Origin: Anaerobaca lacustris
Lineage (GTDB): Bacteria > Planctomycetota > Phycisphaerae > Sedimentisphaerales > Anaerobacaceae
Assembly (NCBI RefSeq): GCF_030012215.1
Contig: NZ_JASCXX010000003.1
Location: 124,001 to 188,000, forward strand
Direction: 5' to 3'
Length of the DNA stretch: 64,000 nt
A program made the position numbers and the translations under genes. A model generated the notes under the pieces. That model saw nothing but the letters and a program-made list of their open reading frames with translations, made no database searches and was not told the DNA's origin. Position 1 is the first letter of the stretch, and each line of letters opens with the position of its first letter. Below are positions 40,774 through 64,000 of the stretch, in pieces.

Positions 40774-40834
40774 TTTCTATCCAGTCGGCCGCGTCAGGAA
40801 GGCCGTACGCGAAATAAACCGTACTTCCCAGGGG

Positions 40835-40850
40835 CGGCATGCAATTTGCA
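40835..40850 (+). promoter_or_regulatory. sigma-54-type promoter of the glycosylation block
   Basis: CGGCATG, CAAT, TTGCA: GG and GC separated by exactly 10 nt, and only two differences from TGGCACG-N4-TTGCW. It would place the start site about 40 nt before the ATG of the first glycosyltransferase gene. Confidence 0.6.
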
Positions 40851-40900
40851 TTCATAGGCGCAGTCCCGATCTATTCCGTGGTCAGAATGGAGTTGTACAG

Positions 40901-44727: not shown

Positions 44728-45117
44728 ATGACCTTGCCTGCGGACCATTCAGGTGTTCCTGCCGATCCCGTGCAGGCGATGTCGGAAGAGCTGGGCCGTC
44801 TTCTGACTCAGCAGATCGCGTGCGTACGCGAGGGCAATCTCGATCGCGTCGAGCAGATTGCCGTTCGGACCGATGCGCTTGTGGCCGGGATCGCGTCGGG
44901 CCGTCCATCAGGATCGGTGCCGGCGGCGTCGCAGAAAGCGCACCTGAAGCGGCTGTACGACGAACTGACTCTCGCTCTGCGCGCCGAGCGAGACGACATA
45001 CAAACGAAGCTGAAGCAGTTGAGGCAGGTCAAGAAGGCGCTCGGCGCCTACGGGCGAGACGCCGGAGCACGATCGGCATTGCGTCCCGCGGCGCTCGACG
45101 ACGCGAGTAGGCAATAG
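44728..45117 (+). CDS. FliT/FlgN-like small helical protein
   Basis: 129 aa, predicted to be an antiparallel helix bundle (about 18-58 and 70-112) with a conserved-looking end KKALGAYGR, similar in size and shape to flagellar export chaperones of the FliT/FlgN type. There is no Cys, no signal peptide and a flexible tail. In a block with glycosyltransferases it might present a late flagellar substrate for modification before export. Assignment by pattern only. Confidence 0.45.
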   Translation: MTLPADHSGVPADPVQAMSEELGRLLTQQIACVREGNLDRVEQIAVRTDALVAGIASGRPSGSVPAASQKAHLKRLYDELTLALRAERDDIQTKLKQLRQVKKALGAYGRDAGARSALRPAALDDASRQ

Positions 45118-47351: not shown

Positions 47352-47380
47352 ATCGGAACCGATTGGAGCAGCAGCACAGT

Positions 47381-48907
47381 ATGACGCAGAATCACAAGAT
47401 TCACACATTGGGCGAGCTACCCGAGGTGCTCGGGCGGCATCGGGACAAAGGGCGAAGGATCGTCCATTGCCACGGAGTGTTCGACCTGCTGCACATCGGC
47501 CACATCCGCTATTTCGAGCAGGCCCGCAGCTTCGGAGATGTTCTGGTGGTCACCCTGACGCCCGACCAGTATGTGGACAAGGGCGACAAGCGGCCGGCCT
47601 TTCCCGAGCGGCTCCGGGCCGAGGCGATTGCTTCATTGAGCGTCGTGGACTACGTCGCGGTCAACGAATGGCCTACTGCTGAGCAGACGCTGCGCTGCCT
47701 CAAGCCCGATGTCTATGTCAAAGGCTCCGATTTCAAGTCCGTTGACGCCGATCGCACAGGCAAGTTGGCGCTGGAAGAGGGGGTTTGCAGGGAATTGGGG
47801 ATTGAGCTTCGATTCACGCAGGACATCGTCTTCAGCTCGACCAGTCTCATCAACCGGTTCTTCTCCTCGTTCTCCCGCGAGCTTCAGGACTATCTCGACT
47901 TGTTCCGTCGCCGCTACTCGCTGGATCGGGTTCTCGAAATCGTTGACGAGATGGCCCGGCTCAAGGTGCTTCTGGTCGGTGACGTGATTGTGGACGAGTA
48001 CTGTTACTGCAGCCCACTGGGCGCCTCGTCGAAATCGCCCGTACTGGCGGTCCGGCGCAACAGCGTGGATTGCTTCGCCGGCGGGGTGCTGGCCGTGGCG
48101 AATCATCTGGCGAATTTCGCGGACCAGGTCACTCTCCTGACGGTCCTGGGCGACCGTGACGATTATCGCGACCTGATCGTCTCGGCGCTGCATCCGCGCG
48201 TCCGCCCGCAGTTCTGGATTCAGGACAACGCGCCGACGCTCGTCAAACGGCGCTATCTCGACGGGTACACGCTCCACAAACTGCTCGAAGTCTACAACAT
48301 GGACGATTCGGGTCTGTCGGCCGACAAGGACGGCCAGATGTGCTCGACGGTCCGTGCCCAGGCGCCGCAGCACGACATGGTGGTTGCGGCCGATTTTGGC
48401 CACGGGGCCGTGAGTTCGTCTTTGTCCCAGTCGCTGGTGGAGCATGCGCCGTTTCTGGCCGTCAACACCCAGGTCAATGCGGGCAACGCCGCCATGCACA
48501 CGATCTCGAAATACGCCCGCGCCGACTACATCAGTCTGACCGAACGCGAGCTTCGGCTGGATTGCCGCGACCAGAAGACCGACCTTCGCCCGTTGGGCTG
48601 CCAGACGGCGGCACGGTTCCACAGCGAGGCCTTGGCTGTGACCAAGGGCCGGCAGGGGGCGTGCCTTTGTGGACCCGACGGCGCATTTGTGGTTGTGCCG
48701 GCGTTTGCGAGCAAGGCCGTCGACAGCGTAGGTTCGGGCGATGCCTTCTTCGCGATCAGTTCGCTGGCGATCCGGCTGGGGGCGCCCTTCGAGATCGCGG
48801 GTTTCCTGGGCAACGTGGCCGGGGCTCTGGCCGTTCAGATCATCGGCAACCAGAAGGCCATCGACAAGGCGAGTTTGACGAAATACATCACCTCTTTGCT
48901 GAAATGA
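47381..48907 (+). CDS. bifunctional sugar-phosphate nucleotidyltransferase/kinase, HldE-like in reversed order
   Basis: 508 aa from the ATG at 47381. Residues 25-150 are a cytidylyltransferase-like domain: GVFDLLHIGH (His38/His41) and VKGSDF. Residues 180-505 are a PfkB-family kinase with the anion hole and catalytic base VDSVGSGDAF (Asp454). Enteric HldE has kinase first and adenylyltransferase second; here the order is opposite. HldE makes heptose 1,7-bisphosphate and later ADP-heptose. With a GmhA-like gene and a HAD phosphatase near by, an NDP-heptose product is likely; the nucleotide is not determinable. Confidence 0.85.
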   Translation: MTQNHKIHTLGELPEVLGRHRDKGRRIVHCHGVFDLLHIGHIRYFEQARSFGDVLVVTLTPDQYVDKGDKRPAFPERLRAEAIASLSVVDYVAVNEWPTAEQTLRCLKPDVYVKGSDFKSVDADRTGKLALEEGVCRELGIELRFTQDIVFSSTSLINRFFSSFSRELQDYLDLFRRRYSLDRVLEIVDEMARLKVLLVGDVIVDEYCYCSPLGASSKSPVLAVRRNSVDCFAGGVLAVANHLANFADQVTLLTVLGDRDDYRDLIVSALHPRVRPQFWIQDNAPTLVKRRYLDGYTLHKLLEVYNMDDSGLSADKDGQMCSTVRAQAPQHDMVVAADFGHGAVSSSLSQSLVEHAPFLAVNTQVNAGNAAMHTISKYARADYISLTERELRLDCRDQKTDLRPLGCQTAARFHSEALAVTKGRQGACLCGPDGAFVVVPAFASKAVDSVGSGDAFFAISSLAIRLGAPFEIAGFLGNVAGALAVQIIGNQKAIDKASLTKYITSLLK

Positions 48908-48913
48908 GACGCG

Positions 48914-49882
48914 ATGGCCGGCAGGTACCCTCTGTTTGACCGATCGGCCCTTCTGGTCAGGCCCATCGGGCAACGCCAGCATGATCTATCCGCGCATAAA
49001 ATCCTTCCACTTGCCCCGGTTGATGCGGCGCATCTGGAGCTGTCTGAAGTTGCCGAGCAGATTGTGCGGGCCCGTCGGCGGGGGGCCGCGGTGATCCTGA
49101 TGATGGGCGCCCACGTTCTGCGCTGCGGGGTCCAGCGCTATCTGATCGATTTGATGGAGCGAGGGCTCATCACGGCGCTGGCCGGCAACGGCGCCTGCGC
49201 GATCCACGACTACGAACTGGCGCTCATCGGCGCCACCACCGAAAGCGTTGCCCGCTACATTCAGGACGGGCAGTTCGGGCTCTGGCGGGAGACGGGTCGA
49301 CTCAACGACGTGATCGCAGCGGCGGCGTCCGAGAATATGGGGCTGGGGGAGGCTGTCGGCCGCGAAATCGAGGAGAGCGACCCTCCGTACAGGGATATCA
49401 GTGTCCTGGCTGCTGCCTACCGTCTGAATATCCCCTTCACCATCCACGTGGGCATCGGCTACGACATCATTCATGAGCACCCCAACTGCGACGGTGCCGC
49501 CCTGGGGGCCGCCAGCTATACCGATTTCCTCATCTTTACGAAGGTGGTCGAGCAACTGGGGCAAGGGGTGGTGATGAACTTCGGCAGCGCCGTAATGGCT
49601 CCGGAGATCTTCCTCAAGGCCCTGGCCATGGTTCGCAACGTCGCCTGCCGACGCGGCGAAAACGGGGCCGGCTTCACGATGCTGGTATGTGATTTGCATA
49701 ATTTGCCGGCGGGCTATCGTCGTGAAGCCCTGAAAGGCAACCCGGACTATTACTTTCGGCCGTGGAAGACCATGTTGGTACGCACCGTGGCCGATGGTGG
49801 AGCAAGCTATTATGTTCAAGGAGACCACGCAACCACGGTCCCCGAACTCTGGACCGCAGTTCGAAGCTGTCCTGCCCTGTGA
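48914..49882 (+). CDS. deoxyhypusine synthase-like protein of unknown role
   Basis: 322 aa. The core (MMGAHVLRCGVQRYL near 60; GNGACAIHDYELALIGAT; IHEHPNCDGAALGAASYTDF; VVMNFGSAVMAPEIFLKAL) has the look of the deoxyhypusine synthase superfamily, an NAD-binding fold, although the active lysine motif of true deoxyhypusine synthase is not evident. eIF5A is not bacterial, so a different reaction is expected. It is sandwiched between the HldE-like and GmhA-like genes, which ties it to the sugar pathway. Its end overlaps the next gene by 71 nt. Family assignment is tentative. Confidence 0.45.
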   Translation: MAGRYPLFDRSALLVRPIGQRQHDLSAHKILPLAPVDAAHLELSEVAEQIVRARRRGAAVILMMGAHVLRCGVQRYLIDLMERGLITALAGNGACAIHDYELALIGATTESVARYIQDGQFGLWRETGRLNDVIAAAASENMGLGEAVGREIEESDPPYRDISVLAAAYRLNIPFTIHVGIGYDIIHEHPNCDGAALGAASYTDFLIFTKVVEQLGQGVVMNFGSAVMAPEIFLKALAMVRNVACRRGENGAGFTMLVCDLHNLPAGYRREALKGNPDYYFRPWKTMLVRTVADGGASYYVQGDHATTVPELWTAVRSCPAL

Positions 49883-50462
49883 ATCGAAGCGGACTTCGGA
49901 GTGGAACGAACAGGTCGTCGCGCTGGCCGACTGTCTCGGCGCCGTTGCCGCCACGGTCGAAGGGGACGTTTCCATCGATACGGACCGGGCCTTTGATCTG
50001 TGGTGCGAGACAACGGAGGTCGTGCGTCAGGCCGAGCGGGTGATCTACCTGATCGGCAACGGCGCCAGCGCCTCGATGGCCAGCCACTTTGCGGCCGATT
50101 TGGCCAAGAATGCCGAGCTGCACACCCAGGTCTTCACCGACACCTCGCTGATTACCGCCGTGGCCAACGATCTGTCGTACGACATGGTCTTCGTGACGCC
50201 TCTGCGTCAGCGGCTCAAAGGCGGCGACATGGTCGTGGCCATCAGCAGTTCAGGCAATTCTCCCAACGTGCTCAAGGCGGCCGAGTGGGCGGCATTGCGA
50301 AAGGCCACGGTTGTGACCTTGAGCGCGATGCAGCCGGACAACGCCCTGAGGCAACTGGGGGCCCTGAACTTCTGGCTGCCGGCCGACACCTACGGCATGG
50401 CGGAAACCGGCCACGCCGCGATCCTGCACCACTGGATGGACCGCGTCTCTCTGCAACGCTGA
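49812..50462 (+). CDS. SIS-domain isomerase, GmhA-like
   Basis: 216 aa from the ATG at 49812 (GGAG 9 nt before); another in-frame ATG is at 49794. The SIS fold shows YLIGNGASASMASHFAADLAK (phosphate loop), VVAISSSGNSPNVLKA and TLSAMQPDN, closest in layout to phosphoheptose isomerase GmhA, which turns sedoheptulose 7-phosphate into heptose 7-phosphate. The HldE-like protein two genes upstream and the two-chain transketolase downstream would complete the route. It overlaps the gene before it by 71 nt. Confidence 0.75.
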   Translation: MFKETTQPRSPNSGPQFEAVLPCESKRTSEWNEQVVALADCLGAVAATVEGDVSIDTDRAFDLWCETTEVVRQAERVIYLIGNGASASMASHFAADLAKNAELHTQVFTDTSLITAVANDLSYDMVFVTPLRQRLKGGDMVVAISSSGNSPNVLKAAEWAALRKATVVTLSAMQPDNALRQLGALNFWLPADTYGMAETGHAAILHHWMDRVSLQR

Positions 50463-51565
50463 TGGTTCCAGTCCAATCGGAGACAGACTGCGTCATGGAC
50501 GACTTGCGTATCGATCATCACAAGCTCTTCTTTCACGTGGACCGTGTTAGCGACTGGCTGGACGGGCAGACGATCTACCCGATCTACATGGAAATCTCTC
50601 CGGCCGGGTCCTGCAACCACCGCTGCGTCTTCTGCGGGCTGGATTTCATGGGTTACCAGCCGAGGTTTCTGGAGGCCGAATTGCTCAAGACGCGGCTGGC
50701 GGAGATGGGCGAATTGGGACTGAGAAGCGTCATGTTCGCAGGCGAGGGCGAGCCTTTCCTGCATCGACAGATGGCCGAGATCATCGTTCACTGCAAAGAG
50801 CACGCGGGCATCGACGTGGCGGTGACGACGAACGGCGTGCTGATGCGGCGCGAGATCAGCGAGCGGATTCTCGGCAGCACCGTATGGATCAAGGTCAGCA
50901 TCAACGCCGGCACGCCCGAAACCTACGCGGCGATTCACGGCACCCGTCCGGAGGACTTTGCCAAGACCCTCGTCAACATGGAGCAGGCGGTGGCGATCCG
51001 CGCGCGGCAGGGCGCCGGTTGCACGCTGGGCGCGCAGATCCTGCTGCTGCCCGAGAACAGAAATGAAGTGACCACGCTGGCGGCGCGGTGCCGGGATCTC
51101 GGGTTTGACTATCTGGTCGTCAAGCCCTATTCTCAGCACCCGCAAAGCGAGCATCGCCATTATGAAGACATTTCGTACGAGCAGCACGAGGAACTGGCCG
51201 CGCAGCTCGAGGAATATGAGAACGACCGTTTTCAGATCATCTTTCGCTTGCGGGCGATGCGTAAGTGCGACGACGGAACGCGGCCTTACAATCGCTGCCT
51301 GGCCTTGCCGTTCTGGTCGTACCTCGACGCCGGCGGCAATATCTGGGGATGCAGCGTGTACTTGGGGGACGACCGTTTCCTTTACGGAAACATCTACCAC
51401 AACACGTTTGAGGAAATCTGGGAGGGTCCCGATCGCCTCGAATCGCTCGCATGGACGACCGCGCATCTGGACGTCTGTTCGTGCCGGGTGGGCTGCCGCA
51501 TGGATGAGATCAACCGCTACCTGTGGGAGTTGAAACATCCCCATCCGCACGTCAATTTTGTCTGA
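50462..51565 (+). CDS. radical-SAM protein with SPASM-like C-terminus
   Basis: 367 aa from the ATG that overlaps the previous stop (TGATG); an ATG at 50495 is an alternative. CNHRCVFC (Cys51, Cys55, Cys58) is the CX3CX2C cluster motif. The C-terminal part has more cysteines (CLALPFWSYLDAGGNIWGC and CSCRVGC) like SPASM/twitch proteins that hold auxiliary [4Fe-4S] clusters. The substrate is unknown; context suggests a sugar or a sugar-bearing peptide. Confidence 0.8.
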   Translation: MVPVQSETDCVMDDLRIDHHKLFFHVDRVSDWLDGQTIYPIYMEISPAGSCNHRCVFCGLDFMGYQPRFLEAELLKTRLAEMGELGLRSVMFAGEGEPFLHRQMAEIIVHCKEHAGIDVAVTTNGVLMRREISERILGSTVWIKVSINAGTPETYAAIHGTRPEDFAKTLVNMEQAVAIRARQGAGCTLGAQILLLPENRNEVTTLAARCRDLGFDYLVVKPYSQHPQSEHRHYEDISYEQHEELAAQLEEYENDRFQIIFRLRAMRKCDDGTRPYNRCLALPFWSYLDAGGNIWGCSVYLGDDRFLYGNIYHNTFEEIWEGPDRLESLAWTTAHLDVCSCRVGCRMDEINRYLWELKHPHPHVNFV

Positions 51566-51577: not shown

Positions 51578-52270
51578 ATGGAGTACCGATATCTCATTTT
51601 CGATTTTGATGGAGTGCTGGCTGAGAGTAACGACATCCGGTTCCGGGGGTTCGAGGATCTTTTTCCCGATCTGTCCGCCGATGTTCGGGTGCGATTTTTG
51701 GAGTTCGTCAAGGCCAACGGCGGACTTTCGCGATACGGCAAGATCCGGCACCTGTACGAGGACATGCTTGGTCAGTCCATATCGGAAGATCGCGTGAACG
51801 AACTGGCCGGGCGGTATTCGGAACTGGTGGCCGGTTGCGTGATTGCGGCTGCGGCAGTACCGGGTTCGCTCGAGTTTCTGCGCGAGTACGCCGATCGATT
51901 CGACTTTGCGGTGGTTTCTGGCTCGGATCAGAACGAGTTGCGTCAGGTGTGCCGGGCCCGTGGGATCGACGGGTATTTCTGCGCGATTCTGGGCTCGCCG
52001 AAAGAGAAGACGCACAACCTGATCGAGTTGATGGGTTCGCACGGATGGGATTGTCAGGCGTGTGTCTATGTGGGTGACTCGCTGAACGATTCCGATGCAG
52101 CGGCCGAAGCCGGCATCGATTTTGTCGGCCGCAACTCCGGCCTGGTCGATTGGGTAAGCAGAGGCATCATCGGGATCGACGATTTGCACGCCTTGCCGGC
52201 GGCCATTGCACAGTTGTCCGATTGTCGGAGGCCGCGTGCCAATGGGGCAGGCAGAAAGGACAGGATATGA
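51578..52270 (+). CDS. HAD-superfamily phosphatase
   Basis: 230 aa. Motif I FDFDGV (Asp9 nucleophile, Asp11), motif II VVSGSD, motif III lysine in SPKEKTHN and motif IV VGDSLNDSDAA are all present, so the fold is catalytically intact. The cap is a helical C1 type, as in phosphoglycolate phosphatase-like enzymes. In this block it is the natural candidate for the heptose-bisphosphate phosphatase step done by GmhB elsewhere, though it is not GmhB by sequence. ATGA overlap with the next gene. Confidence 0.82.
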   Translation: MEYRYLIFDFDGVLAESNDIRFRGFEDLFPDLSADVRVRFLEFVKANGGLSRYGKIRHLYEDMLGQSISEDRVNELAGRYSELVAGCVIAAAAVPGSLEFLREYADRFDFAVVSGSDQNELRQVCRARGIDGYFCAILGSPKEKTHNLIELMGSHGWDCQACVYVGDSLNDSDAAAEAGIDFVGRNSGLVDWVSRGIIGIDDLHALPAAIAQLSDCRRPRANGAGRKDRI

Positions 52271-53106: not shown

Positions 53107-53593
53107 ACCGATGCGCAACTATCGCAGAGACCTTTTGCCGTCGCTGGTTCCCCATTTCGAGACGGACGACCGTTACCGCCTCCTGGTGTGCGATATGGGG
53201 TTCGGTGTTCTGGACCGGCTGCGGGAGGTCTTTCCGGATCGCGTGGTGAACTGCGGCATCATGGAGCAGGCCACCGTGGGAATCGCCGCCGGAATGAGCA
53301 TGAGCGGATTGGTGCCGATCGTCTATTCCATTGTGAACTTTCTTGTCTTTCGGGCGCTGGAGCAGATTCGAAATGACATCGTGTTGCAACGGCTGAACGT
53401 CAAGCTGATCGGCAACGGGGCGAACGACTATTTCCGGTTTCTTGGCCCCTCGCACTGCTGTGGGAACGACGATCTTGCGATCCTGCGGACGATCGGCATG
53501 CCGGTGTACGATCCCTATTCCGACGACCGGCCGTTTGAGACGCTGGTGGAGCACTGGATGCGCGAGCCGCAGGCCGGGTACATACGGGTGTGA
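53099..53593 (+). CDS. transketolase-like pyrimidine-binding subunit, short
   Basis: 164 aa, overlapping the previous gene by 8 nt. It corresponds to the middle (Pyr) domain of transketolase and keeps the catalytic glutamate (VNCGIMEQATVGIAAG). The third, C-terminal transketolase domain is missing, whereas typical split C-terminal subunits are about 310 aa. The reading frame ends cleanly, so it is a real short form rather than a frameshift. Some TPP enzymes work with only PP and Pyr chains. Confidence 0.8.
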   Translation: MDEPMRNYRRDLLPSLVPHFETDDRYRLLVCDMGFGVLDRLREVFPDRVVNCGIMEQATVGIAAGMSMSGLVPIVYSIVNFLVFRALEQIRNDIVLQRLNVKLIGNGANDYFRFLGPSHCCGNDDLAILRTIGMPVYDPYSDDRPFETLVEHWMREPQAGYIRV

Positions 53594-53594
53594 C

Positions 53595-54257
53595 ATGGGT
53601 ACGGAAAGGCAGATGATCCAGAGCATCCACCGATCGGCTCCTCGGGATTACCTGGCCCGGATGACCGCGGAGAAGCCGTTGCGCGTGGAGATCGCCAAGC
53701 GATTCGACCGGGACTTCTTCGATGGGGACCGGGCGAATGGGTACGGTGGTTACCGGTATGACGGGCGATGGAAGCCGGTCGCGCAACAGCTTCTGCGTCA
53801 CTACAACCTGACGGAAGGTGCGCGGGTGCTCGACGTGGGGTGCGGGAAGGGATTCCTCCTGCGGGATTTGCGGGAGATTCGGCCCGATCTCGATGTACGA
53901 GGCCTCGATGTCTCGCTGTACGCGGTGGACCATGCCGAAGAAGCGGTCAGAGACGCGGTATTCGTACACGATGCTCGTCGGCGTTTGCCCTTCGACGATG
54001 GCGCTTTCGATCTCGTGGTGTCGATCAATACGCTGCACAATCTGTATCTGTATGAGATTGTCGAGGCACTCCGCGAGGTGGCGCGCGTCGGCAGACAGGC
54101 GTACATTGTCGTGGAGAGCTATCGAAATGAGGCCGAGAAGTTCAATCTGATGTGCTGGAACCTCACCGGCGAATGTTTCTTCACGCCGGACGAGTGGCGC
54201 TGGGTGTTCTCAACAGCCGGCTATGCCGGCGATTACGAATTCATCTTCTTCGAATGA
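53595..54257 (+). CDS. class I SAM-dependent methyltransferase
   Basis: 220 aa from the ATG just after the previous stop. Motif I LDVGCGKGFLLRDL near residue 77, GLDVS for motif II and VVSINTLHNL for motif IV. The C-terminal part (TGECFFTPDEWRWVF) is typical of methyltransferases on small molecules or sugars. Second methyltransferase of the block. Confidence 0.8.
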   Translation: MGTERQMIQSIHRSAPRDYLARMTAEKPLRVEIAKRFDRDFFDGDRANGYGGYRYDGRWKPVAQQLLRHYNLTEGARVLDVGCGKGFLLRDLREIRPDLDVRGLDVSLYAVDHAEEAVRDAVFVHDARRRLPFDDGAFDLVVSINTLHNLYLYEIVEALREVARVGRQAYIVVESYRNEAEKFNLMCWNLTGECFFTPDEWRWVFSTAGYAGDYEFIFFE

Positions 54258-54269: not shown

Positions 54270-55340
54270 ATGGGAACCATCTACTCGAGGGCAAAGGTGT
54301 TCCATTACCGCGAGGCGCTGGACCATCTCCCGAGACACGTCGAAGGCATCGGTCCGCCGATCCACATCCGGATCAAGCCGACCAACATATGCAACCATCG
54401 CTGTTGGTACTGCTCGTATCGGCTCAAGGGCGTTCAGTTGGGGCAGGACATGGACGAACGCGATGTGATCCCGTACGACAAGATGATGGAGATCGTCGAT
54501 GATCTCGTGGCCATGCGGGTGCGCGCGGTGACCTTCAGCGGCGGGGGGGAGCCGTTTTGCTATCCTCACCTGGAAGAGACGGTACTGCGGCTGGCCGATG
54601 GGGGCGTTCGTTTCGCATCGCTGACGAATGGCTCGCGGCTGACCGGATCCATCGCGGAGGTGTTTGCCCATCGAGGCGTCTGGCTGCGGATCTCGATTGA
54701 CGGCTGGGATGACGAGAGCTATGCCCGCCAGCGCCATGTGGCGCACGGCGAATTTACCCGCGTGCTGGCCAATATGAGGGCGTTCAAACGGTTGAAGGGT
54801 CCGTGTCACCTTGGGGTCGCCCTGGTCGTTGACCAGACCCTGGCGCCGCATGTGGCCGAACTCATCGAGCGGGTCTGCGAGACGGGCGCCGACAGTGTCA
54901 AAGTCGCGCCCTGCATCCTGAGCAACGTTGCCCAGGAGAACAACGACTATCACGCTCCCCTTTTCGAAGAGGTGAAACGCCAGATCGCCGTCGCAAAGGA
55001 ACGGTTCCGAGACGAGGCGGTCGAGATCTTCGATTCGTACCATCAGCAGTTGGAGACGTTTGCAAAGTCGTACCATTGGTGTCCCTATCTTCAACTGAAC
55101 CCGGTGATCGGGGCCGATCAGAACGTGTACACGTGCCACGACAAGGCCTACAACCTCAGGGAAGGTCTTCTCGGCAGTCTGCGAGACCGACGGTTTCGCG
55201 ACTTCTGGATGACGGACAAGGACAAGTTCTTTCGCATCGATCCGTCGCGCCACTGCAACCACCACTGCGTGGCGAATCAGCGCAACATCCTGGTCCACGA
55301 GTATCTCGAAGCAGACGCCGATCACCTGGCGTTCGTTTAG
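54270..55340 (+). CDS. radical-SAM protein with SPASM-like C-terminus
   Basis: 356 aa. CNHRCWYC (Cys41, Cys45, Cys48) is the radical-SAM cluster motif; TFSGGGEPF is the GGE-type SAM-binding motif. The C-terminal CPYLQLNPVIGADQNVYTC and CNHHC cysteines suggest auxiliary clusters. It resembles the first radical-SAM protein of the block in layout but is not a close copy. Substrate unknown. Confidence 0.8.
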   Translation: MGTIYSRAKVFHYREALDHLPRHVEGIGPPIHIRIKPTNICNHRCWYCSYRLKGVQLGQDMDERDVIPYDKMMEIVDDLVAMRVRAVTFSGGGEPFCYPHLEETVLRLADGGVRFASLTNGSRLTGSIAEVFAHRGVWLRISIDGWDDESYARQRHVAHGEFTRVLANMRAFKRLKGPCHLGVALVVDQTLAPHVAELIERVCETGADSVKVAPCILSNVAQENNDYHAPLFEEVKRQIAVAKERFRDEAVEIFDSYHQQLETFAKSYHWCPYLQLNPVIGADQNVYTCHDKAYNLREGLLGSLRDRRFRDFWMTDKDKFFRIDPSRHCNHHCVANQRNILVHEYLEADADHLAFV

Positions 55341-55384: not shown

Positions 55385-56833
55385 ATGAACAGATTCAAAG
55401 TTGTATTGGTCGTGCCCAACTACCGTTGGACGGAACTCGACGAGAGTGCGTTTTGGCACATCACGCCCTACAATCTCTGTCTGCTCGCGGCGATGGTTCG
55501 GGACCTGTGCGAGGTGCAGATCATCGATGCCTATGCTCCCGACATGGCCGAGAGCGAGTTTGTCGATGTGCTGCAGGCCGCGGCTCCGGATCTCGTAGGC
55601 GTGACGGTCATGATGGATCAATGTGCCTCGGCAGGGCACAGGACCGCCCGTTTGGCCAAATCTCTGTTCCCCGACACCCCGCTGGTTATGGGCGGGGTGT
55701 ATCCGACCGTCAATCCCGACCAGGTGATGACCGACCCTCACGTCGATTACACCGTGGTGGGCGAGGGAGAGTACGTCTTCCGGGATCTCGTCGAATCCCT
55801 GATCGGGCGCAGGGCCATGCCGGACAAGGGGCTTTCCTATCGTAAAGGGCCGGCGGTGGTGCACACGGGACGCGCCGACTTCATTGAGGACCTCGACGCC
55901 CTGCCTCTGCCGGCGTTCGAACTCATCGACTTCGAGAGATATACGAGCATGGCCCCGCGCAGAAGTGTCGATGGTCCGGTGGCGTTGCCATACGCCCGAA
56001 TCGTTACGTCCCGGGGCTGCCCCGTGGATTGCGTCTTCTGCCAGGTGAAGCGGATCATGGGGCGGAAGTTCCGGCCGCGCAGCGCCGAGTCTGTGCTTGG
56101 CGAGATCGGCTGGCTCAAAGAACGCTATGCGATTCGAAGCGTCATCTTCGACGACGACAATCTCTTCACCGATCGACGGCGCGCCCGAGACATCTTTCAG
56201 GGCATGATCGACCGTGGCTTCGATCTGCCGTGGAAATCCACGGCGACCGCCGTGTTCCGATTAGACGAGGAACTGCTGCAACTGATGCGTCGCAGCGGCT
56301 GCCAGTACATCTGTATTGCCATTGAATCGGGTACGCAGCGCGTGCTCAAGGAGATCGTCGGCAAGCCCGTGGATTACACGCAGGCCCAACGGATGGTCCG
56401 ACTGGCCCGGTCTCTGGGAATCTACGTCGCCGCGAACTTCATCGTGGGGTTCCCGACGGAGACCTGGGATGAGATTCGCCGGACGATCCGGTTCGCCGAG
56501 GAACTGGACGTCAACTACGTCAAGCTGTTTCACGCCATCCCCTTGAGGCACACCCGCCTGTGGGAACTGTGCGAGCGAGAGGGGGCGTTCAAGAAGGGTT
56601 TCCACCAGTCGGAGATTCGCTGGAACACGGGCCAGATCGAGTCCGATGCCTTCAGCAGTCAGGATCTGACCATCCTGAGGGCCTACGAATGGGATCGGAT
56701 CAACTTCACCGATCCCGAAAAACGGCGGCAAACGGCCGCCATGATGAACATCAACGAGGCGGAACTTTTGGCGATACGGCGAAAGACACTGGCGAGAGTC
56801 CAGTCGGAAATGGTCCCGGCAGCGACCGCGTAG
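55385..56833 (+). CDS. B12-binding-domain radical-SAM protein
   Basis: 482 aa. N-terminal part (1-150) has the cobalamin-binding Rossmann layout typical of class B radical SAM enzymes (NYRWTELD, then LVGVTVMMDQ and LVMGGVYPTVNPDQVM, VVGEGEYVF), followed by the radical-SAM core with CPVDCVFC (Cys212, Cys216, Cys219) and GFPTET. Such enzymes methylate unactivated carbon or rearrange carbon skeletons. The DxHxxG cobalamin motif is not obvious, so base-off binding is likely. Third radical-SAM gene of the block. Confidence 0.82.
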   Translation: MNRFKVVLVVPNYRWTELDESAFWHITPYNLCLLAAMVRDLCEVQIIDAYAPDMAESEFVDVLQAAAPDLVGVTVMMDQCASAGHRTARLAKSLFPDTPLVMGGVYPTVNPDQVMTDPHVDYTVVGEGEYVFRDLVESLIGRRAMPDKGLSYRKGPAVVHTGRADFIEDLDALPLPAFELIDFERYTSMAPRRSVDGPVALPYARIVTSRGCPVDCVFCQVKRIMGRKFRPRSAESVLGEIGWLKERYAIRSVIFDDDNLFTDRRRARDIFQGMIDRGFDLPWKSTATAVFRLDEELLQLMRRSGCQYICIAIESGTQRVLKEIVGKPVDYTQAQRMVRLARSLGIYVAANFIVGFPTETWDEIRRTIRFAEELDVNYVKLFHAIPLRHTRLWELCEREGAFKKGFHQSEIRWNTGQIESDAFSSQDLTILRAYEWDRINFTDPEKRRQTAAMMNINEAELLAIRRKTLARVQSEMVPAATA

Positions 56834-56858: not shown

Positions 56859-57809
56859 GTGCTCGTGTTGAGAACCGACCAGTCGAAATTCGGTACAGTC
56901 TCACAACGTGACGTTCTGGTTGTGGGCGCCGACGGAATCTTGGGTCGTCACCTTGTCGAACTCCTCGAGCAGACGGGATGCGTCGTGTGGAAGACAAGTC
57001 GCCGATCCGAATTCGCCGGACCGCAGTGTTTCAAGGTCGATTTGGCCGGTGAGGCCGCGGATTGGCAATTGCCGCCGGTGCCTTCGTATGCGGCCGTGAT
57101 CTGTGCGGCCGTTCCGGCGGTGGCCACCTGCGAGGCTGATCCCCAAGCGACGGCACGCGTCAACGTGACGGGGACCGTGACGTTGGCCCGCCTGCTGACG
57201 GCTAAAGGCATCTTCACGGTCTTCCCTTCGTCAAACATGGTGTTCGATGGCGCTCGCCCAAACTGCCGATCGGACGAACCGGTTTGCCCGTGCACCGAAT
57301 ACGGTCGCCAGAAAGCCTTGGCCGAGCAGCAACTGAGCAGTCTCGGCGACAGGGTTGCCATCGTGCGTTTCACCAAGATCCTCAGTCCAAATCTGCCGCT
57401 GATCGCCGGATGGATTCAAGCCCTGCGGTCGGGACACGAGGTCTATCCGTTCTCCGATATGGTGATGGCCCCTGTGCCGGTCACGTTTGCGGTGGAGGTC
57501 CTGCGGCAGATTGCCGAACGGCACCTGCCCGGCGTATTCCACGTGTCCGGCGATCCTGATGTCAGCTATGCCGAGGTGGCGCGGCATCTGGCGTCGCGTC
57601 TGGGCGCGGACCCGGCATTGGTCGTGCCCGTATCCTCCGAGAGCAGAGGGCTGCCGGCCAGGGCGATCGCAAAGCATACAACGCTGGACACCAGTCGGAT
57701 ACGCTCGGTTCTGGGCATGCAGCCGCCGAGTGTCTGGGAGGCGATCGATGAGACCTTTGGCCTGGTTGGAGAACGGACCCCAGGAAGAATGGAAAGGTGG
57801 ATTACATGA
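56859..57809 (+). CDS. RmlD-like NAD(P)-dependent sugar reductase/epimerase
   Basis: 316 aa from GTG 56859; the nearby GTG 56865 is equally possible (AGAAGG lies just upstream). Extended SDR family: Rossmann motif VVGADGILGRH at the start and the active site YGRQK (YxxxK) near residue 148. Most like dTDP-4-dehydrorhamnose reductase. It would reduce or epimerise a 4-keto nucleotide sugar. It overlaps the giant gene that follows by 4 nt (ATGA). Confidence 0.78.
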   Translation: MLVLRTDQSKFGTVSQRDVLVVGADGILGRHLVELLEQTGCVVWKTSRRSEFAGPQCFKVDLAGEAADWQLPPVPSYAAVICAAVPAVATCEADPQATARVNVTGTVTLARLLTAKGIFTVFPSSNMVFDGARPNCRSDEPVCPCTEYGRQKALAEQQLSSLGDRVAIVRFTKILSPNLPLIAGWIQALRSGHEVYPFSDMVMAPVPVTFAVEVLRQIAERHLPGVFHVSGDPDVSYAEVARHLASRLGADPALVVPVSSESRGLPARAIAKHTTLDTSRIRSVLGMQPPSVWEAIDETFGLVGERTPGRMERWIT

Positions 57810-60800
57810 GCTTTCTGTCCTACGCGAGCTACAAGGCCTTCCTTGACGAGCGCATTGGTCGCCTGGACGACCCGGTTGCCCGAAACCATGTCAGTGAAAG
57901 GTTCTCTGGCTGGCACCAAGGCTATCGTCTGCACCGGCTCCTTGAACGGGCATCCGAACTATTGGCATCGGAACGGACGCGTCCGAACATGCTTCATCTG
58001 GGCTGCGAAGCCGACCTGACCCTTCTGGGCCACCTGGCCCGGCGACATCGCTTCGACGCGCGGCGGTTTCGCGGCTTCCTGGTGGCCGACTCCCTGTGGG
58101 ATCGGGTCAAGCCGGAGTGGTTCTCACCATTCCCGGTCTATCGGACCGGGCAATGGCAGGACCGTGAGGGCACGGTTGTCGTCAGCCTTTCTCTGGATCG
58201 CCCGTTCCGCGAGGGCCGCAGCGACCGGGGCAACGACTACCTGGAATGCTTCATCGACCTGAACCGCTTCTCCGTTCCTGCGGCGTTCCGGCGGGAGTTC
58301 GTTGACCGTCAAGTGGTTCTCTATGTGACCTATCGCATGATTCAGACCCTGCCGGCGATTTCGGATCAAATCCGCAAGAGTTCCGACATGGTTACCGCAT
58401 TGCTCGTCGATTCCGCGCCGGCCGCTGCTGGACGCGAATTTGACGCCGTGATGGAAGAACCCTTCTTCTATCTGTGGCCATTGCTGTTCAAACACCTCGC
58501 GGCGGATCTCTTCCACATCAATGTCGGTTGGGGAACCCAGGGGCTGCCCTTCATGCCATTTGTTCCGGACTCGCAGAAAGCCATTGTGGACTTCTATGAC
58601 GTGACCACCCTGATTCCGGACGAGAGCATGAACCCGCGTCACCCGGAGCCACTGGCGCTGACGCGCGCGTCGGAGAAGTATCTTTGGAAGACATGCAATC
58701 ATTTCGTCCACCGATGTTCCGAGGAGACCAGCGAGCGGCTGGAAGAGAAGTATCCGCACGCGCGCGTCGCCTCGGTGGTCGAGTACGTGAAGGACCCGGT
58801 GTCTTTTCAACCGGCCAGAAAGAAGGGTGATATACGCCTTGTGTATGGCGGACTCCTCCTTCAGGACGCATCCGACGTGCACTCGGTGTTCTACAGCCGG
58901 TTCCGTTCTCTGGTCGACTATTTCGCCCATGGGAATCTGCACCTGTTTGTCTACCCATCGCCCTATCTGTACGGTTTCGGGCGGCCGAAGGCGGTGGACG
59001 AACTCGTCGAGACCCAGGGCCTGACCAACGTCCATCCCTGCGAACCTCTCGAAGAGGATCAGTGGATTCAGGAGATATCGCGGTATGATTACGGCGTGTG
59101 CATCCCCGGTGATGCTCGGCCGTGTGTGTATCCCTACATCCTGCCGTTCAAAGTCATCGCCTATCTTCGGGCGGGATTGCCTCTGGTCGTGCCCGAGGAC
59201 CACACGTTCATTGCCGACCTCGTGCGGAAGAATGAGATCGGCGTCGTATATGGATACGACGATGCCGATCGGATGGCCGATCTTCTCAACAGCCAGGACA
59301 TCGACCGGCTCAAGAGCAACGTGCTTCGATTCCGTGAGCGGTTCAGAACCGACAGAGCGGCGCAGAAGGTGATGGCGTTGTACAACGACGCCCTCGGCTC
59401 GACACGCCGCACGGCTGCCTGCTCCGCAAAGCTGGCTGTTCGCCGCGATCCAAAGGATGGGGCGATCTCTTCGTGGCCCTCGCTCATGGAGAAGTTGGAC
59501 CGGTCCGGGTTCATCGGCGCCGATGAGTACAACCATCTGCTCGAGCAGGAAATCGGCAGGATTTTTACGGGTGTAGCCCTGCGGCATGCGACCGACAAGT
59601 TCCGTCGCTGGTTCGCGGCTTATCGGGACTTCCGCTGCGCGTCCCGAGTTGTCGAACTCGTTGCCGGTCTCAAAGGGGCCCCATACCATCTCTATCTGGA
59701 CGATCCGACGAACCTGAACGCACTTGCCGGCGTCGTGCAGGGCCTTGGCCAGGCCGGACTTGCCCCGCCTGTGGCGTTCATCGCAGGGCAGGGGGCGGAA
59801 CAGTTGAGGCCTCGCCTTGCGCCGCATCACGTTGTGGGGCTTGGTGACGGCGTTCCCGAAGGGCCTACGGTGATCGGCCTTTCAGGGAAACCGTTTTCCG
59901 CAAAAGGCCACAATGTGCTGATCAATGACTATCTGGAGCGATTCATTGACCCCGGTCGGTTCCGGGCAGTGCGACAGAGCCTGGATCGCGACGCAGAGAA
60001 AGAGACGGTCCTGTATCCTCTGTATCGCGAGATTCACACGATGGCCATTATGGCCCGATTCATCAGGGCCAAGGACGAACGGTTCCGCGTCGTCTCCCTC
60101 TCGCCGTCGCCTTTGCTGGACGCCGATTTCGATGCCATGCTGGTGGAGCCGTTCTTCTACCTCTGGCCGCTCCTCCTGCGAATCGTGGACCCCAGCGTCG
60201 TTCATCTGAATGTGGGGTGGGGGATCCAGGCCCTCGCCCTGTCTCCGTTCATACCGGATCGCCGTCGGACTGTGATCGACTTCTACGAAGTCCTTTCCTC
60301 TCTGCCCGACGCCTTCTTCGAGAAGACGCACAGCAGCGCCGAAGAAGTCCGCGAGGCCGAGAGGCACTTTGTAACCAACTACGACCACGTCATCCACCTG
60401 TGCTCCGATGAGGTGTCGGAGAGGATGAGGAACCAGTACAATCCTGCCGGTTCGATTGTCTCCGTGACGGAATATCTGTACGAGCCGACCTACGACGTTC
60501 CGACCGAGAAGCACGACGACATTCGGATCGTTTATGGCGGCGCCATGCTGGCCTCGAATTCGCCTGACAACATGTACTACGACGCCTTCCTGAAGGCGGC
60601 CCGCCATTTCACTCGCGACAATCTGCACCTCCACATCTACAACTCACCCTACCTCAATGGAACCGGGGAGAATACGGGGCTCCGGGAAGTCATTCGCCAG
60701 CATGGCCTGACCCAGGTATATGCCTGTCAGCCGCTGAAGCTGGAGGACTTCGTCAAAACCATCACGCAGTACGATTACGGGACCTTCCTTCTGAGAGCGG

Positions 60801-63800
60801 AGGACATGAAGGCGGGAGACACCTACAACCAGTACATGGCGACGAAGTTCTTGATGTACCTTCGGGCCGGTCTGCCCGTCATCATCCACGCCGAGAACCG
60901 CTTCATGGCCGATCTGGTCCGTCGCTACAACATTGGAGTGGTTCTCCAGGACGGCGACCTGGAACGGCTCCCGGAGATCCTGAACCACACGGACTTGCCA
61001 TCATTGAAGAAAAACGTCATCCGGTTCCGCAACGAATTCAGCATTGAGAAGGGCGGTGCCAAGGTTTTGCGTATGTACCACGACATTCTGGAGCAGGGCA
61101 ATCGAAAGACGCATCCATCCGAGTCGGCAAGCGAGCGGGAAGCCTTCGAGGGACTGATCTCATCCATGGCCCGGACCGAGAACCGACTCTACTATCGGGA
61201 CCAGTCCGCGCAGACGATGACCTCTCTGGCCGGGTATGCCCGCGCGCTGGACCCCACAGTGATCGTCGAGCTGGGGACGCTGGCGGGACTGTCCCTGCGA
61301 ACGTGGGTGACGTCGGCGCAACGGGCGAAGATCTACGCTGTGGATCTCAGTTTCGACAAGCTGCGCGAAACGATGAATCTGCTGCCTGTCGATCTTTCGC
61401 GAGTGACCCTCTTGGAGCAGGATATCCTCAAGACCGACTTCTCCTGCCTTTGGACGGAGCAGGACCGGGTGATCTTCTTCGTGGATGCCCACGATCTGCC
61501 CGGCGTGCCGATCATGGAGCACGTGCTTACGACGGCTCTGCCCGCCTTGCCGGACGGTAGCCTGGTCATTGTGGACGATCTCTGGTTCAGCGAGGAGCGG
61601 TTGACGCGAGACAATGCCCAGGCGTTTCTGGACGGCCGCGTGGTCGGCGAGATCGACGAGTTGCAGTGCTTTGAGGGACACTACGCCCCGTACCACGAAG
61701 GCGGCTCGTTCATGGGCTTTGCCGAAGTGGGCCCCTTGCTCGAGTTTGTCAATCGCCACGGTATCGAGCTGCGACATGATGTGGGCGGCAAGCACGTCTC
61801 ATTCGTGTGGCGGAGGGCCTGTCTGTCGCATATCGGGGAGGCGGTTGCTGCCGGGCCGCGGGGCTACTATGGGTCGGTGTCGTACAATCCGCTGATGTCC
61901 GTTCCCGTGTCCGCGTCGCTCGCAGAGCCGATGCAGCGGATTGCCCAGGACTACCGGCAGAAGCGGATTGCGCAGGCCGCGCAGGGGTTGGCCGACCTCA
62001 GGGAGCGGCATCCCGGCGAGCCGGGGCTCGCGTATGGCCTGGCGGTCTGCCACGCGCGATGCGGCCAGCTCGACCAAGCCCGAGACATGCTTGGGCGCGT
62101 CGTGCATGACACCAACGATCGGCGTTGTCGACGGCTTTTTGACGATCTCGTCGCGCGCGTCGGTCCCTGCGACGAGCCGCAGCCCCACATCGCACGGGGT
62201 TCTTCGCGAAATGCGTCCGGTCTGACGATCTTCGCGATGCCAAAGGCCTTTGAGGGGCATATTGGCACCATACAGAGGAACGCCATTCGGAGTTGGGCCC
62301 GGCTCGATCCGGCTCCGGAGATCCTCCTGTTTGGCGATGAGCCGGGGATTTGCGAGATGGCCGAAGAAGTCGGCGCCCGCCACATTCCTCACGTCGATCG
62401 AAATGAGTTCGGGACTCCTCTGGTCAACAAGCTCTTCGAGGCCGCCCAAGCGCATGCCTCGCATGAGATTATGGCGTATGTCAACGCGGACATGATCCTC
62501 TTTCGGGAGTTCGTCGACGGCGTGCGGAAGGTGAGGACCGAACTGGATCGATTCCTGCTCATAGGGCAACGCTGGGATATTCCGATCCTCGAAGAAATCG
62601 ACTTTCGTCAGCCTGGGTGGCAACGGTGGCTCCAGGAGCAGATGGAAGAGCATGCCATGCTTCACGCCGAGTGCGGCCTCGACTACTTCGTCTTCCCCAA
62701 AGGGCTGTATCGGCAGATTCCTCCTTTTGCAGTCGGACGGATCGCCTGGGACAACTGGTTGGTCATGGCGCCGCACCGCGACGGTGTTCCCGTCGTGGAC
62801 GGCACTGAGTTTATTACGGTGGTTCATCAGGACCATGACTATGGGCATGTCGCTGGAGGGCGACGCGAAGCCTGGACTGGCGCAGAGGCCTCGCGCAACC
62901 GCGTTCTGGCCGGCACCGTGGACGATTCGGCCTATACCTCTGGGGCTCACTATATCCTGCGCCGCAACGGTCGGGTAGTGAAGACGCCGCCGCGCGAGCC
63001 CCTGTTCGGCACCACCGCGTATCGAGAGTACCGGCACGCCTGGCTGACCAGAGAGGCGCAGCGGCTCATGGCCCTCGGCCGGATGGAACTGGCGGCGACC
63101 AAGTGGGAGGAATCGCTCCCGATTCTGGAACGGTTGCTGATTGCAGCACGGCGGAAAGCACGCTCAGGAGGCACGGATGGCAAACCGCTGGCAGAGTGCT
63201 ATGTGACCAGTTGTATTTCGATGGCCCAGTGTTATATGAAGCAAGGACGTTACGACCAGGTCGTGACAAGCTATACGCGGCTCCTGGAAACGCCCCTTTT
63301 CGAGCTTCCGCAGAAGCAGCGTGACGACATCCAGCGGGTGTGCGATCAGTTACGGGAGCATCCGCCGCAAGGCGGAAGATCGCAGGGACGGTTGTCCGGC
63401 AATCGAAATGAGCGATACGCTCCGGCTCGAACTGTCGAACGGATGCAACGGGATGCGGCAACGAGGCAGGGCCCGGATCAGAAGCGGCTCGCCCTCGTCG
63501 TCTCGGTCCCGGAGCGCGCCGATGATCTGCGTCGTATCATCACGGACATCGAGGACCAGTTCGACGAGATACGTGTTCTATTGAATGAATACGAGACGGT
63601 CCCGGAGGACCTGCGCCGCTTTGCCAAGGTTTCTCGAATCGAGACGAGTGCCAGAGGAGAGTTGTTCGCCAGCGGAGTGTGGACGTTGTTGACGCCGGAG
63701 GATGAGGGATACGTGTTTGTGCTCGATGACGACATCACGTACCCGCCTGACTACGCCGACACGATGATCGCGAAGATCGAGGAGCATCAGCGTCGAGCCG

Positions 63801-64000
63801 TCGTTGTGGTCCACGGAATGGATTTCTGTCCACCGTTCGCCGATTTCGTCGTGGATCGGACGTTGTACCATTTCGAATCCGCCTGCCGACGGGATCGGAC
63901 CGTTCACGCCGGAGGTGTGGGAACGCTGGTATTTCATACCAGCACGATTCGTCCGGACAGCCGCGACTTGTGCTTTGCCGTCCTGGCGGCGAAGCGCAAG
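57806..64000 (+). CDS. giant multi-domain glycosyltransferase, 3' end outside the window
   Basis: An open frame of 2065 codons from the ATG at 57806 (overlaps the previous stop; AAAGG 8 nt before) with no stop before the right edge. Modules: GT-B-like repeat A (about 1-530, EPFFYLWPLLFK at 218) and repeat B (about 610-1095, EPFFYLWPLLLR at 781), offset about 563 residues and clearly duplicated; a class I methyltransferase-like domain (about 1115-1345, VELGTLAGLS); short TPR-like part; a GT-A-like domain (about 1473-1720, YVNADMIL); TPR-like helices (about 1750-1850); and a second GT-A-like domain (from 1893, VLDDDITYPPDY near 1972, HAGGVGTLVF). It probably assembles a whole oligosaccharide. 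Minus-strand open frames here are shadows. Confidence 0.88.
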   Translation, partial: MSFLSYASYKAFLDERIGRLDDPVARNHVSERFSGWHQGYRLHRLLERASELLASERTRPNMLHLGCEADLTLLGHLARRHRFDARRFRGFLVADSLWDRVKPEWFSPFPVYRTGQWQDREGTVVVSLSLDRPFREGRSDRGNDYLECFIDLNRFSVPAAFRREFVDRQVVLYVTYRMIQTLPAISDQIRKSSDMVTALLVDSAPAAAGREFDAVMEEPFFYLWPLLFKHLAADLFHINVGWGTQGLPFMPFVPDSQKAIVDFYDVTTLIPDESMNPRHPEPLALTRASEKYLWKTCNHFVHRCSEETSERLEEKYPHARVASVVEYVKDPVSFQPARKKGDIRLVYGGLLLQDASDVHSVFYSRFRSLVDYFAHGNLHLFVYPSPYLYGFGRPKAVDELVETQGLTNVHPCEPLEEDQWIQEISRYDYGVCIPGDARPCVYPYILPFKVIAYLRAGLPLVVPEDHTFIADLVRKNEIGVVYGYDDADRMADLLNSQDIDRLKSNVLRFRERFRTDRAAQKVMALYNDALGSTRRTAACSAKLAVRRDPKDGAISSWPSLMEKLDRSGFIGADEYNHLLEQEIGRIFTGVALRHATDKFRRWFAAYRDFRCASRVVELVAGLKGAPYHLYLDDPTNLNALAGVVQGLGQAGLAPPVAFIAGQGAEQLRPRLAPHHVVGLGDGVPEGPTVIGLSGKPFSAKGHNVLINDYLERFIDPGRFRAVRQSLDRDAEKETVLYPLYREIHTMAIMARFIRAKDERFRVVSLSPSPLLDADFDAMLVEPFFYLWPLLLRIVDPSVVHLNVGWGIQALALSPFIPDRRRTVIDFYEVLSSLPDAFFEKTHSSAEEVREAERHFVTNYDHVIHLCSDEVSERMRNQYNPAGSIVSVTEYLYEPTYDVPTEKHDDIRIVYGGAMLASNSPDNMYYDAFLKAARHFTRDNLHLHIYNSPYLNGTGENTGLREVIRQHGLTQVYACQPLKLEDFVKTITQYDYGTFLLRAEDMKAGDTYNQYMATKFLMYLRAGLPVIIHAENRFMADLVRRYNIGVVLQDGDLERLPEILNHTDLPSLKKNVIRFRNEFSIEKGGAKVLRMYHDILEQGNRKTHPSESASEREAFEGLISSMARTENRLYYRDQSAQTMTSLAGYARALDPTVIVELGTLAGLSLRTWVTSAQRAKIYAVDLSFDKLRETMNLLPVDLSRVTLLEQDILKTDFSCLWTEQDRVIFFVDAHDLPGVPIMEHVLTTALPALPDGSLVIVDDLWFSEERLTRDNAQAFLDGRVVGEIDELQCFEGHYAPYHEGGSFMGFAEVGPLLEFVNRHGIELRHDVGGKHVSFVWRRACLSHIGEAVAAGPRGYYGSVSYNPLMSVPVSASLAEPMQRIAQDYRQKRIAQAAQGLADLRERHPGEPGLAYGLAVCHARCGQLDQARDMLGRVVHDTNDRRCRRLFDDLVARVGPCDEPQPHIARGSSRNASGLTIFAMPKAFEGHIGTIQRNAIRSWARLDPAPEILLFGDEPGICEMAEEVGARHIPHVDRNEFGTPLVNKLFEAAQAHASHEIMAYVNADMILFREFVDGVRKVRTELDRFLLIGQRWDIPILEEIDFRQPGWQRWLQEQMEEHAMLHAECGLDYFVFPKGLYRQIPPFAVGRIAWDNWLVMAPHRDGVPVVDGTEFITVVHQDHDYGHVAGGRREAWTGAEASRNRVLAGTVDDSAYTSGAHYILRRNGRVVKTPPREPLFGTTAYREYRHAWLTREAQRLMALGRMELAATKWEESLPILERLLIAARRKARSGGTDGKPLAECYVTSCISMAQCYMKQGRYDQVVTSYTRLLETPLFELPQKQRDDIQRVCDQLREHPPQGGRSQGRLSGNRNERYAPARTVERMQRDAATRQGPDQKRLALVVSVPERADDLRRIITDIEDQFDEIRVLLNEYETVPEDLRRFAKVSRIETSARGELFASGVWTLLTPEDEGYVFVLDDDITYPPDYADTMIAKIEEHQRRAVVVVHGMDFCPPFADFVVDRTLYHFESACRRDRTVHAGGVGTLVFHTSTIRPDSRDLCFAVLAAKRK

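Follow-up and report, generated by a model that had tools for sequence, protein, structure and literature searches.

A giant modular protein encoded beside fliD in Anaerobaca lacustris as a possible builder of the flagellar sugar coat

Flagellin glycosylation islands have been described in Enterobacteriaceae at the fliDC/AZ locus, where some of the enzymes are fusions of a GT41 glycosyltransferase with a methyltransferase (PMC4875605). In Caulobacter, the enzyme FlmG modifies flagellin in the cytoplasm, and its tetratricopeptide repeat (TPR) domain can bind flagellin (PMC7591256). No template dictates the sequence of a glycan, and two to four transferase domains are present in the multi-transferase enzymes compared here: the chlorovirus protein A064R is described as among the few proteins with three, and four glycosyltransferase (GT) domains are predicted for the giant-virus protein R496 (PMC9614988). 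Herein, we describe a gene of Anaerobaca lacustris (order Sedimentisphaerales) found in a stretch of 64,000 nucleotides, hereafter the window, which covers positions 124001-188000 of contig 3 of a draft genome (5.73 Mb, 117 contigs). The gene lies on the + strand, starts at 57806, continues through the window end at 64000 to the equivalent of position 66283, and encodes a multi-module glycosyltransferase of 2825 residues, labelled P0002. Our analysis suggests that the flagellum may owe its sugar coat to this one protein, whose modules can be shuffled. Specifically, we consider it probable (roughly 0.6) that the protein is a soluble multi-enzyme of the cytoplasm, that it belongs to a flagellar glycosylation island, and that it extends and methylates a flagellar glycan after a separate TPR-containing transferase has started it.

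The giant frame and its modules

A sequence-only reading of the window had claimed a single frame, open for 2065 codons up to the window end and overlapping a sugar reductase gene by ATGA. Both the frame and the overlap were found. The frame runs unbroken to position 64000, either from the ATG at 57806 (2065 codons) or from an alternative start, GTG at 57797 (2068 codons; the letters at 57797 are GTGGATTACATGAGC), and its stop ends at contig position 190283, 2.3 kb beyond the window. The overlapping gene (56859..57809, + strand) encodes an RmlD-like sugar reductase (Pfam RmlD_sub_bind, E 1.1e-36). Past 64000 lie the remainder of the second GT-A unit, a third GT-A-like unit and a canonical GT2 unit, followed by fliD, flhB, motB and fliI. 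The chain comprises some six units for sugar transfer and one for methyl transfer, arranged in the order A (GT-B), B (GT-B), methyltransferase, TPR, GT-A unit G1, TPR, G2, G3 and C-terminal GT2. It has no clear membrane segment, the maximum hydropathy over 19 residues being 1.51.

Module A (57806..59440, residues 1-545) consists of an N-terminal part of ~165 residues and a GT-B glycosyltransferase (166-533). Its AlphaFold2 model has a confidence (predicted local distance difference test, pLDDT) of 81.4. The GT-B part was matched to 7qsg by VIA-align with a Z of 21.8 (root-mean-square deviation, rmsd, 4.5 Å; 322 aligned residues), and Foldseek gave a match for the module at E 1.5e-09. Most of the VIA-align matches listed are GT-B glycosyltransferases or GT-B-like epimerases, and the N-terminal part lies outside the residue ranges of the matches listed. 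A profile of A and B matched Gtf3-type enzymes (4w6q, E 4.3e-05; 3qkw/3rhz, E 0.0011), with only ~100 residues covered. As modelled, module A has the two Rossmann domains of a GT-B glycosyltransferase. The sequence-only reading had further proposed a second copy of this unit on the basis of three pairs of landmarks. These pairs were located in the translation in the proposed order, and residues 564-1120 align to residues 1-559 with 34% identity (311 bits). Module B (59495..61135, residues 564-1110) is thus a paralogue of A and probably a second GT-B unit, its fold likely being that of A. The proposal that both modules are the same kind of unit was thereby supported, for A by its model and for B by its identity to A.

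The core of the chain (residues 1107-1850) was modelled with a pLDDT of 89.2 and a predicted template modelling score (pTM) of 0.55; given this pTM, the mutual placing of the core domains is unsure. Its first domain (61124..61819, residues 1107-1338; residues 1-232 of the core model) has a Z of ~16 to COMT/TrmR-type methyltransferases and a weak match to Methyltransf_24 (E 0.007), and the VELGTL-GLSLR stretch of its glycine-rich motif I is invariant in 7/7 aligned rows. The model gives it the fold of a class I S-adenosylmethionine (SAM) methyltransferase. Two TPR segments follow, one at 61958..62131 (residues 1385-1442; Pfam TPR_19, E 3.5e-10) and one at 63209..63292 (with residues 1802-1829 as its core; TPR_7, E 3e-07). 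TPR structures were absent from the 50 VIA-align matches listed for the core model. When profile A3 was compared with the sequences of the Protein Data Bank (PDB), the best 60 of 96 rows were mostly TPR proteins, a result uninformative on the GT-A part. TPR is present in the chain, but GT41 (OGT) is not among the Pfam families listed for it, which is weak evidence of absence.

Between the TPR segments lies unit G1 (62210..62926, residues 1469-1707), which carries a DXD-like motif, NAD, at residue 1560. In the core model (residues 363-601) it resembles the K4 chondroitin polymerase 2z86 (Z 17.3, rmsd 3.1 Å, 214 aligned residues) and GalNAc-T2 (Z 15.8), and is thus modelled with a GT-A fold. Unit G2 starts at 63473 (residue ~1890), extends beyond the window to residue ~2100, and has a DDD motif at 1974. 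Its profile (A5) matched heparosan synthase B (8vh7, E 3.5e-31) and KfiA (5z8b, E 5.8e-23), with the DDDI-YP-DYV stretch conserved; the match spans G2 and excludes G3 (profile positions 14-223 of 503). G2 is homologous to KfiA-type alpha-N-acetylglucosamine (alpha-GlcNAc) transferases, a family we take to be GT45, and transfer from UDP-GlcNAc is its putative activity. Beyond the window follow G3, a GT-A-like unit with a DDD motif at residue 2184, and the terminal GT2 unit (residues 2418-2584; Pfam, E 6e-37). Models and profiles in this way recovered what the earlier reading had described as a methyltransferase-like domain followed by TPR segments and GT-A-like domains.

Conservation in related genomes, which that reading had also expected, was observed in L034 and L035, whose collinear frames are 55% identical over ~2340 residues. 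The pairwise ratio of nonsynonymous to synonymous substitution rates (dN/dS) was 0.12-0.31 in all eight comparisons, covering A, B, the methyltransferase (M), G1, G2-G3 and the terminal GT2 unit (C); the ratios are rough, since dS was above 1 in five of the eight. These values show that all compared modules are under purifying selection.

Large genes upstream of fliD and turnover of modules

The giant gene stands directly before fliD, and we determined how often fliD loci of the order have such a neighbor. Order, family and genus groupings follow the genome-database assignment. The FliD_C domain was found in 106 of the 148 genomes of the order; 92 of these 106 loci were examined, 19 of which were undecidable at contig edges. 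An open reading frame (ORF) was counted as large from 800 residues, the smallest counted having 898 (925 in the window's family). Among the 42 decidable loci of this family, a large ORF lies directly upstream of fliD in 25 and with one gene between in four (29/42); one locus (G036) was counted as direct, though a split frame stands between its ORF and fliD. Elsewhere in the order, a large ORF is directly upstream in 12/31 decidable loci, and four of the loci scored as having none (G068, G077, G093, G110) have one further upstream. Nearly all the large ORFs (40/41) carry one to six GT2-like domains, as detected by a hidden Markov model (HMM) seeded from the giants. Pfam covered 29 of the 41 giants, the other 12 being scanned by the GT2 HMM only, and Pfam GT2 was present in 22 of 23 giants scanned together. 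In three genomes (G018, G113, G084), two to four large ORFs of about 900-3,100 residues precede fliD, and the GT2 scan refers to the last of each. As a control we sampled 40 of the 73 FliD-positive genomes of the phylum outside the order. A GT2-bearing giant directly upstream of fliD, sought with the HMM seeded from the giants, was present in 0/39 decidable loci; an ORF of at least 800 residues was there in 2/39, neither matching GT2.

Two observations concern the layout of these loci. An ORF of 315-325 residues lies between giant and fliD in four genomes (L072, L073, L024, L076), and the large ORFs of G113 (L139), of 3080 and 1605 residues, are in tandem.

A further comparison covered 35 genomes picked by hand, whose relatedness makes the counts interdependent. 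P0002-like sequence (E <= 1e-30) occurred in 10/13 giant-bearing genomes, the window's included, in 0/13 FliD-positive genomes without a giant and in 0/9 FliD_C-negative genomes. We rejected the possibility that all giants are one orthologous enzyme family, since in those of G007, G022 and G023 no stretch resembles P0002 at this threshold. Hence "giant upstream of fliD" denotes a class of proteins.

The giants vary by whole modules. We denote by M the methyltransferase with its TPR segment, by G1 the GT-A unit with its TPR segment, by G23 the G2-G3 pair, by C a GT2 unit, by N' another N-terminus whose first domain is GT2-like, and by X a part bearing radical SAM/SPASM domains in G002 and G005. 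The window giant (2825 residues) then reads A-B-M-G1-G23-C. The giants of G002 (4014 residues; N'-M-G1-G23-C-X-C-C), G005 (3559; N'-M-G1-C-X-C-C) and G029 (2914; M-G1-C-X-C after a shorter N') begin differently, and those of L034 and L035 (about 3200) repeat a unit, as A-B-M-G1-G23-G1-C. G004 has B-M-G1-C-C, with A at the end of another contig. The giant of G008 is a single chain of 3706 residues that unites GT-B domains, six GT2 domains and a B12-binding radical SAM enzyme. Radical SAM domains are fused in the giants of G002, G005 and G008, and in 3/23 members of A4. Between the proteins of G002 and G005, identity is 81% across roughly the first 1320 shared residues and 67% across roughly the last 2100; of the two, only G002 has G23, which lies between these parts. 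In a search of 20 genomes picked by hand, the A-B pair occurs in six, namely the window genome, its congener G004 and four members of genus g32. Other members of the window's genus (G001, G002, G003 and G005) gave no match for it. The FliD of G005 is 80.5% identical to that of the window. That A-B was not found in these congeners despite this identity, and that G23 is present in G002 but not in G005, indicates that whole modules are gained, lost or exchanged.

On a tree of GT2 domains, the labels of terminal modules required 5 changes, compared with 30.5 in shuffles; the last module thus tends to stay last. Long branches meet in this tree, so that its deep joins are unsure. A single origin of all terminal modules was unsupported: the 39 terminal domains form three main groups, and that of G120 stands apart among internal ones. 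The named relatives closest to the giant's core are metagenome-assembled genomes (MAGs) labelled Phycisphaerae, Phycisphaerales, Sedimentisphaerales or Planctomycetota.

Single modules have relatives further afield. For the GT-A domain of G1, relatives at ~36-48% identity were seen in records with the labels Acidobacteria, Chloroflexi, Synergistales, Geobacter and others (L047-L068). A MAG labelled Deltaproteobacteria (L043:8795-11482) encodes an 895-residue SPASM/radical SAM-methyltransferase-TPR fusion, whose methyltransferase is 41% identical to M. This fusion adjoins relatives of two radical SAM genes of the window (56%) and of one of its methyltransferase genes (46%).

The flagellar glycosylation island

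The sequence-only reading had assigned the frame to a glycosylation block. An island of sugar genes does precede it, and the block is flagellar and ends at fliD. As annotated, glycosyltransferase and sugar-biosynthesis genes stand here among flagellar genes, the arrangement that defines such an island. On the + strand, from left to right, it opens with the flagellar genes for FlgI (35230..36504, E 2e-111), FlgK (37480..39450; FlgK_D1, E 8.3e-51) and a flagellin-domain protein, probably FlgL (39488..40714; Flagellin_N, E 2.1e-13, and a weak Flagellin_C). They are followed by a gene for a TPR and GT-B-type (Glycos_transf_1) protein (40748..42415), which we call TPR-GT; its layout is FlmG-like, and it is the candidate for transfer of the first sugar. 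Next come Pfam-identified genes for a GT2 protein with a weak C-terminal TPR-like part (42430..44070) and a TPR protein (44107..44724), and one for a FliT-like protein (44728..45117; E 3.8e-4, below the Pfam cut-off).

The remaining genes up to the RmlD-like reductase, assigned by Pfam unless stated, are also on the + strand. They encode a member of the UDP-glucose/GDP-mannose dehydrogenase family (45143..46567), a possible source of UDP-glucuronic acid; a methyltransferase of uncertain start (46476..47351); an HldE-like kinase/nucleotidyltransferase (47225..48907; NCBIfam matches below cut-offs); a GSU2086-family protein (48914..49882; NCBIfam NF052581, E 6.2e-118); a radical SAM protein that matches SPASM weakly, under the Pfam cut-off (50000..51565); a HAD phosphatase-like protein (51578..52270); a methyltransferase (53442..54257); a radical SAM protein (54270..55340); and a B12-binding radical SAM enzyme (55385..56833). 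The product of the last gene has a relative embedded in the G008 giant (27% identity, E 4.6e-37). The HldE-like protein has its domains swapped, the nucleotidyltransferase preceding the sugar kinase. Pfam and NCBIfam gave no match for an ORF of 260 residues within the island (52467-53249).

Downstream, fliD likely starts ~125 nt past the giant's stop and is followed on the opposite strand by flhB, motB and fliI; fliR, fliP, fliO and motA, identified by reading translations, are also downstream. Two MotB-like genes and one MotA-like gene are back to back at L002:15239-17480 (Pfam for one MotB, the others by reading). The flagellin gene fliC is found ~19 kb downstream from the giant (L070:1492-2301, contig 3 at ~209.1 kb), followed by a probable fliS, recognized by reading.

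In the 35 genomes, TPR-GT was matched at E <= 1e-100 in 13/13 giant-bearing, 4/13 giant-less and 1/9 FliD_C-negative genomes; the first ~45 residues are missing from most matches, the matches in G005 and G006 each contain a single stop, and the G036 match is broken into two pieces. In 11/13 genomes TPR-GT shares the giant's contig, at a distance of no more than about 30 kb (in G004, this is the contig bearing module A). Of the four giant-less genomes with TPR-GT, three (G122, G131, G147) carry it at about 5 kb or less from the fliD match.

Proposed function, alternatives and known systems

In the proposed process, the first sugar is probably placed on a flagellar protein, most likely flagellin, by TPR-GT. 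The glycan would then be extended by the two GT-B, three GT-A or GT-A-like and one GT2 units of the giant chain, whose TPR segments may hold the acceptor, and methylated by the methyltransferase of the chain. Donor sugars could be supplied by the products of neighboring genes: the UDP-sugar dehydrogenase, the heptose-type kinase/nucleotidyltransferase, the RmlD-like reductase and the radical SAM enzymes. Homology allows guesses at the sugars, namely GlcNAc/uronic acid units from G2 and the dehydrogenase, and heptose from the HldE-like gene. Because modules are swapped, lost, duplicated or fused to radical SAM parts in relatives, the glycan presumably differs between close species. One may go further and propose a glycan assembly line, comparable in logic to polyketide synthases, in which the flagellar glycan's sequence and methylation are dictated by which modules occur in the one polypeptide and in what order, and in which whole-module swaps diversify the flagellar coat of the lineage; we offer this as a speculation and consider it rather unlikely.

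Several points weigh against a giant multi-enzyme of flagellar glycosylation. The glycan, activity, target and donors are predictions from genes. The genome's own flagellin has only 269 residues and should therefore be without the outer D2/D3 region, the region in which Aeromonas flagellin is described as glycosylated. No large ORF accompanies fliD in 13/42 decidable loci of the family, so the giant is not needed for a flagellum, and the giants of G007, G022 and G023 lack the P0002-like stretch. TPR-GT is far from the giant in G022 and on another contig in G137. G3 is a weak assignment, its best match being Galactosyl_T (E 0.0083), found in 2/5 members. Frames are split in two relatives, within module A of L038 (L038:6709-13612) and the terminal module of G036 (L016:6580-13031), by either decay or sequencing error. 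Finally, the named relatives of the giant's core are all MAGs or shotgun drafts.

Fusion may also be a mere convenience, in which flagellar glycosyltransferases were joined by chance and the modules act independently, or are cleaved, without any effect of their order. We regard this as a serious possibility, if short of even odds. It would fit the many G1 relatives of other phyla that are short ORFs (about 250-460 residues, 36-48% identical), the B12 radical SAM and GT2-TPR proteins that are separate genes here with relatives inside other giants, and the several large ORFs that replace one upstream of fliD in G018, G113 and G084. However, long fusions have been kept in many genera, purifying selection acts on all compared modules, and terminal GT2 modules tend to keep their place.

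The acceptor could be another flagellar protein, i.e., FliD, FlgK, FlgL or the hook. The position of the giant is tied to fliD and flgK/flgL, whereas fliC is ~19 kb away; yet comparable published islands are described as modifying flagellin (PMC4875605, PMC7591256), and we consider another acceptor unlikely. It is quite improbable that the chain makes a surface polysaccharide (a capsule or a glycosaminoglycan-like polymer) and is found in a flagellar cluster incidentally. The closest relatives of G2 are KfiA and heparosan synthase, the models of G1 are closest to the GT-A domain of K4 chondroitin polymerase, and a UDP-sugar dehydrogenase gene lies within the island, all of which would suit such a polymer. 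Against it stand the large ORFs at fliD (29/42 family loci, 12/31 elsewhere in the order) and the absence of P0002-like sequence (E 1e-30) from the 9 FliD_C-negative and 13 giant-less genomes of the family that were searched; no polymer exporter was noticed among the scanned neighbors, though no dedicated search was made. That the long frame is an assembly artefact of a draft in 117 contigs can be dismissed, given the collinear 55% identical frames in L034 and L035, the longer frames in G002, G005, G008 and G029, and dN/dS well below 1 for every compared module.

If the proposed flagellar multi-enzyme is real, it would show a lineage changing its flagellar surface through recombination inside one gene. 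The chains, 2,800-4,000 residues long, carry methyltransferase or radical SAM modules and up to six GT2 domains (G008), and they are tied to fliD. Varying by whole modules among close relatives, they form a natural series in which to ask if glycan structure can be predicted from module content. Among the papers listed from open-licence PMC literature, no title or abstract opening describes giant modular glycosyltransferases, either upstream of fliD or in Sedimentisphaerales, which is weak evidence of absence.

The kind of enzyme is already known, namely the transferases of flagellar glycosylation islands, but the giant is far larger and modular. As in the Enterobacteriaceae islands (PMC4875605), glycosyltransferase and sugar genes are inserted near fliC/fliD, some transferases being fused to methyltransferases, and the content of those islands, which varies even within species, can be likened to the variation here. 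Those islands are described with one to three glycosyltransferases (GT2, GT25 or GT41), compared with about six transferase units and a methyltransferase in one chain here. TPR-GT resembles FlmG in its TPR plus GT-B layout; FlmG has 596 residues and a single transferase domain, and acts in a pseudaminic acid pathway (PMC7591256). WsaE of the Geobacillus S-layer glycan (PMC2943079) and ORF6 of Klebsiella O7 (PMC11231755) likewise combine a methyltransferase with two glycosyltransferase domains per chain. By their descriptions, WsaE has three functions and ORF6 is a methyltransferase-kinase with two glycosyltransferases, and both build non-flagellar polymers ended by methylation (PMC2943079, PMC11231755). 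Chlorovirus A064R also holds several glycosyltransferases and a methyltransferase in one chain, which adds and methylates protein-linked sugars; as described, it differs in its 638 residues and in making a viral N-glycan, and neither TPR nor exchange of modules is mentioned for it (PMC9614988). Heparosan synthase B and KfiA are homologous to only one module of the giant, G2. In conclusion, the giant is set apart from known multi-domain transferases by the number of its units, its size, its link to the flagellum and the visible turnover of its modules.

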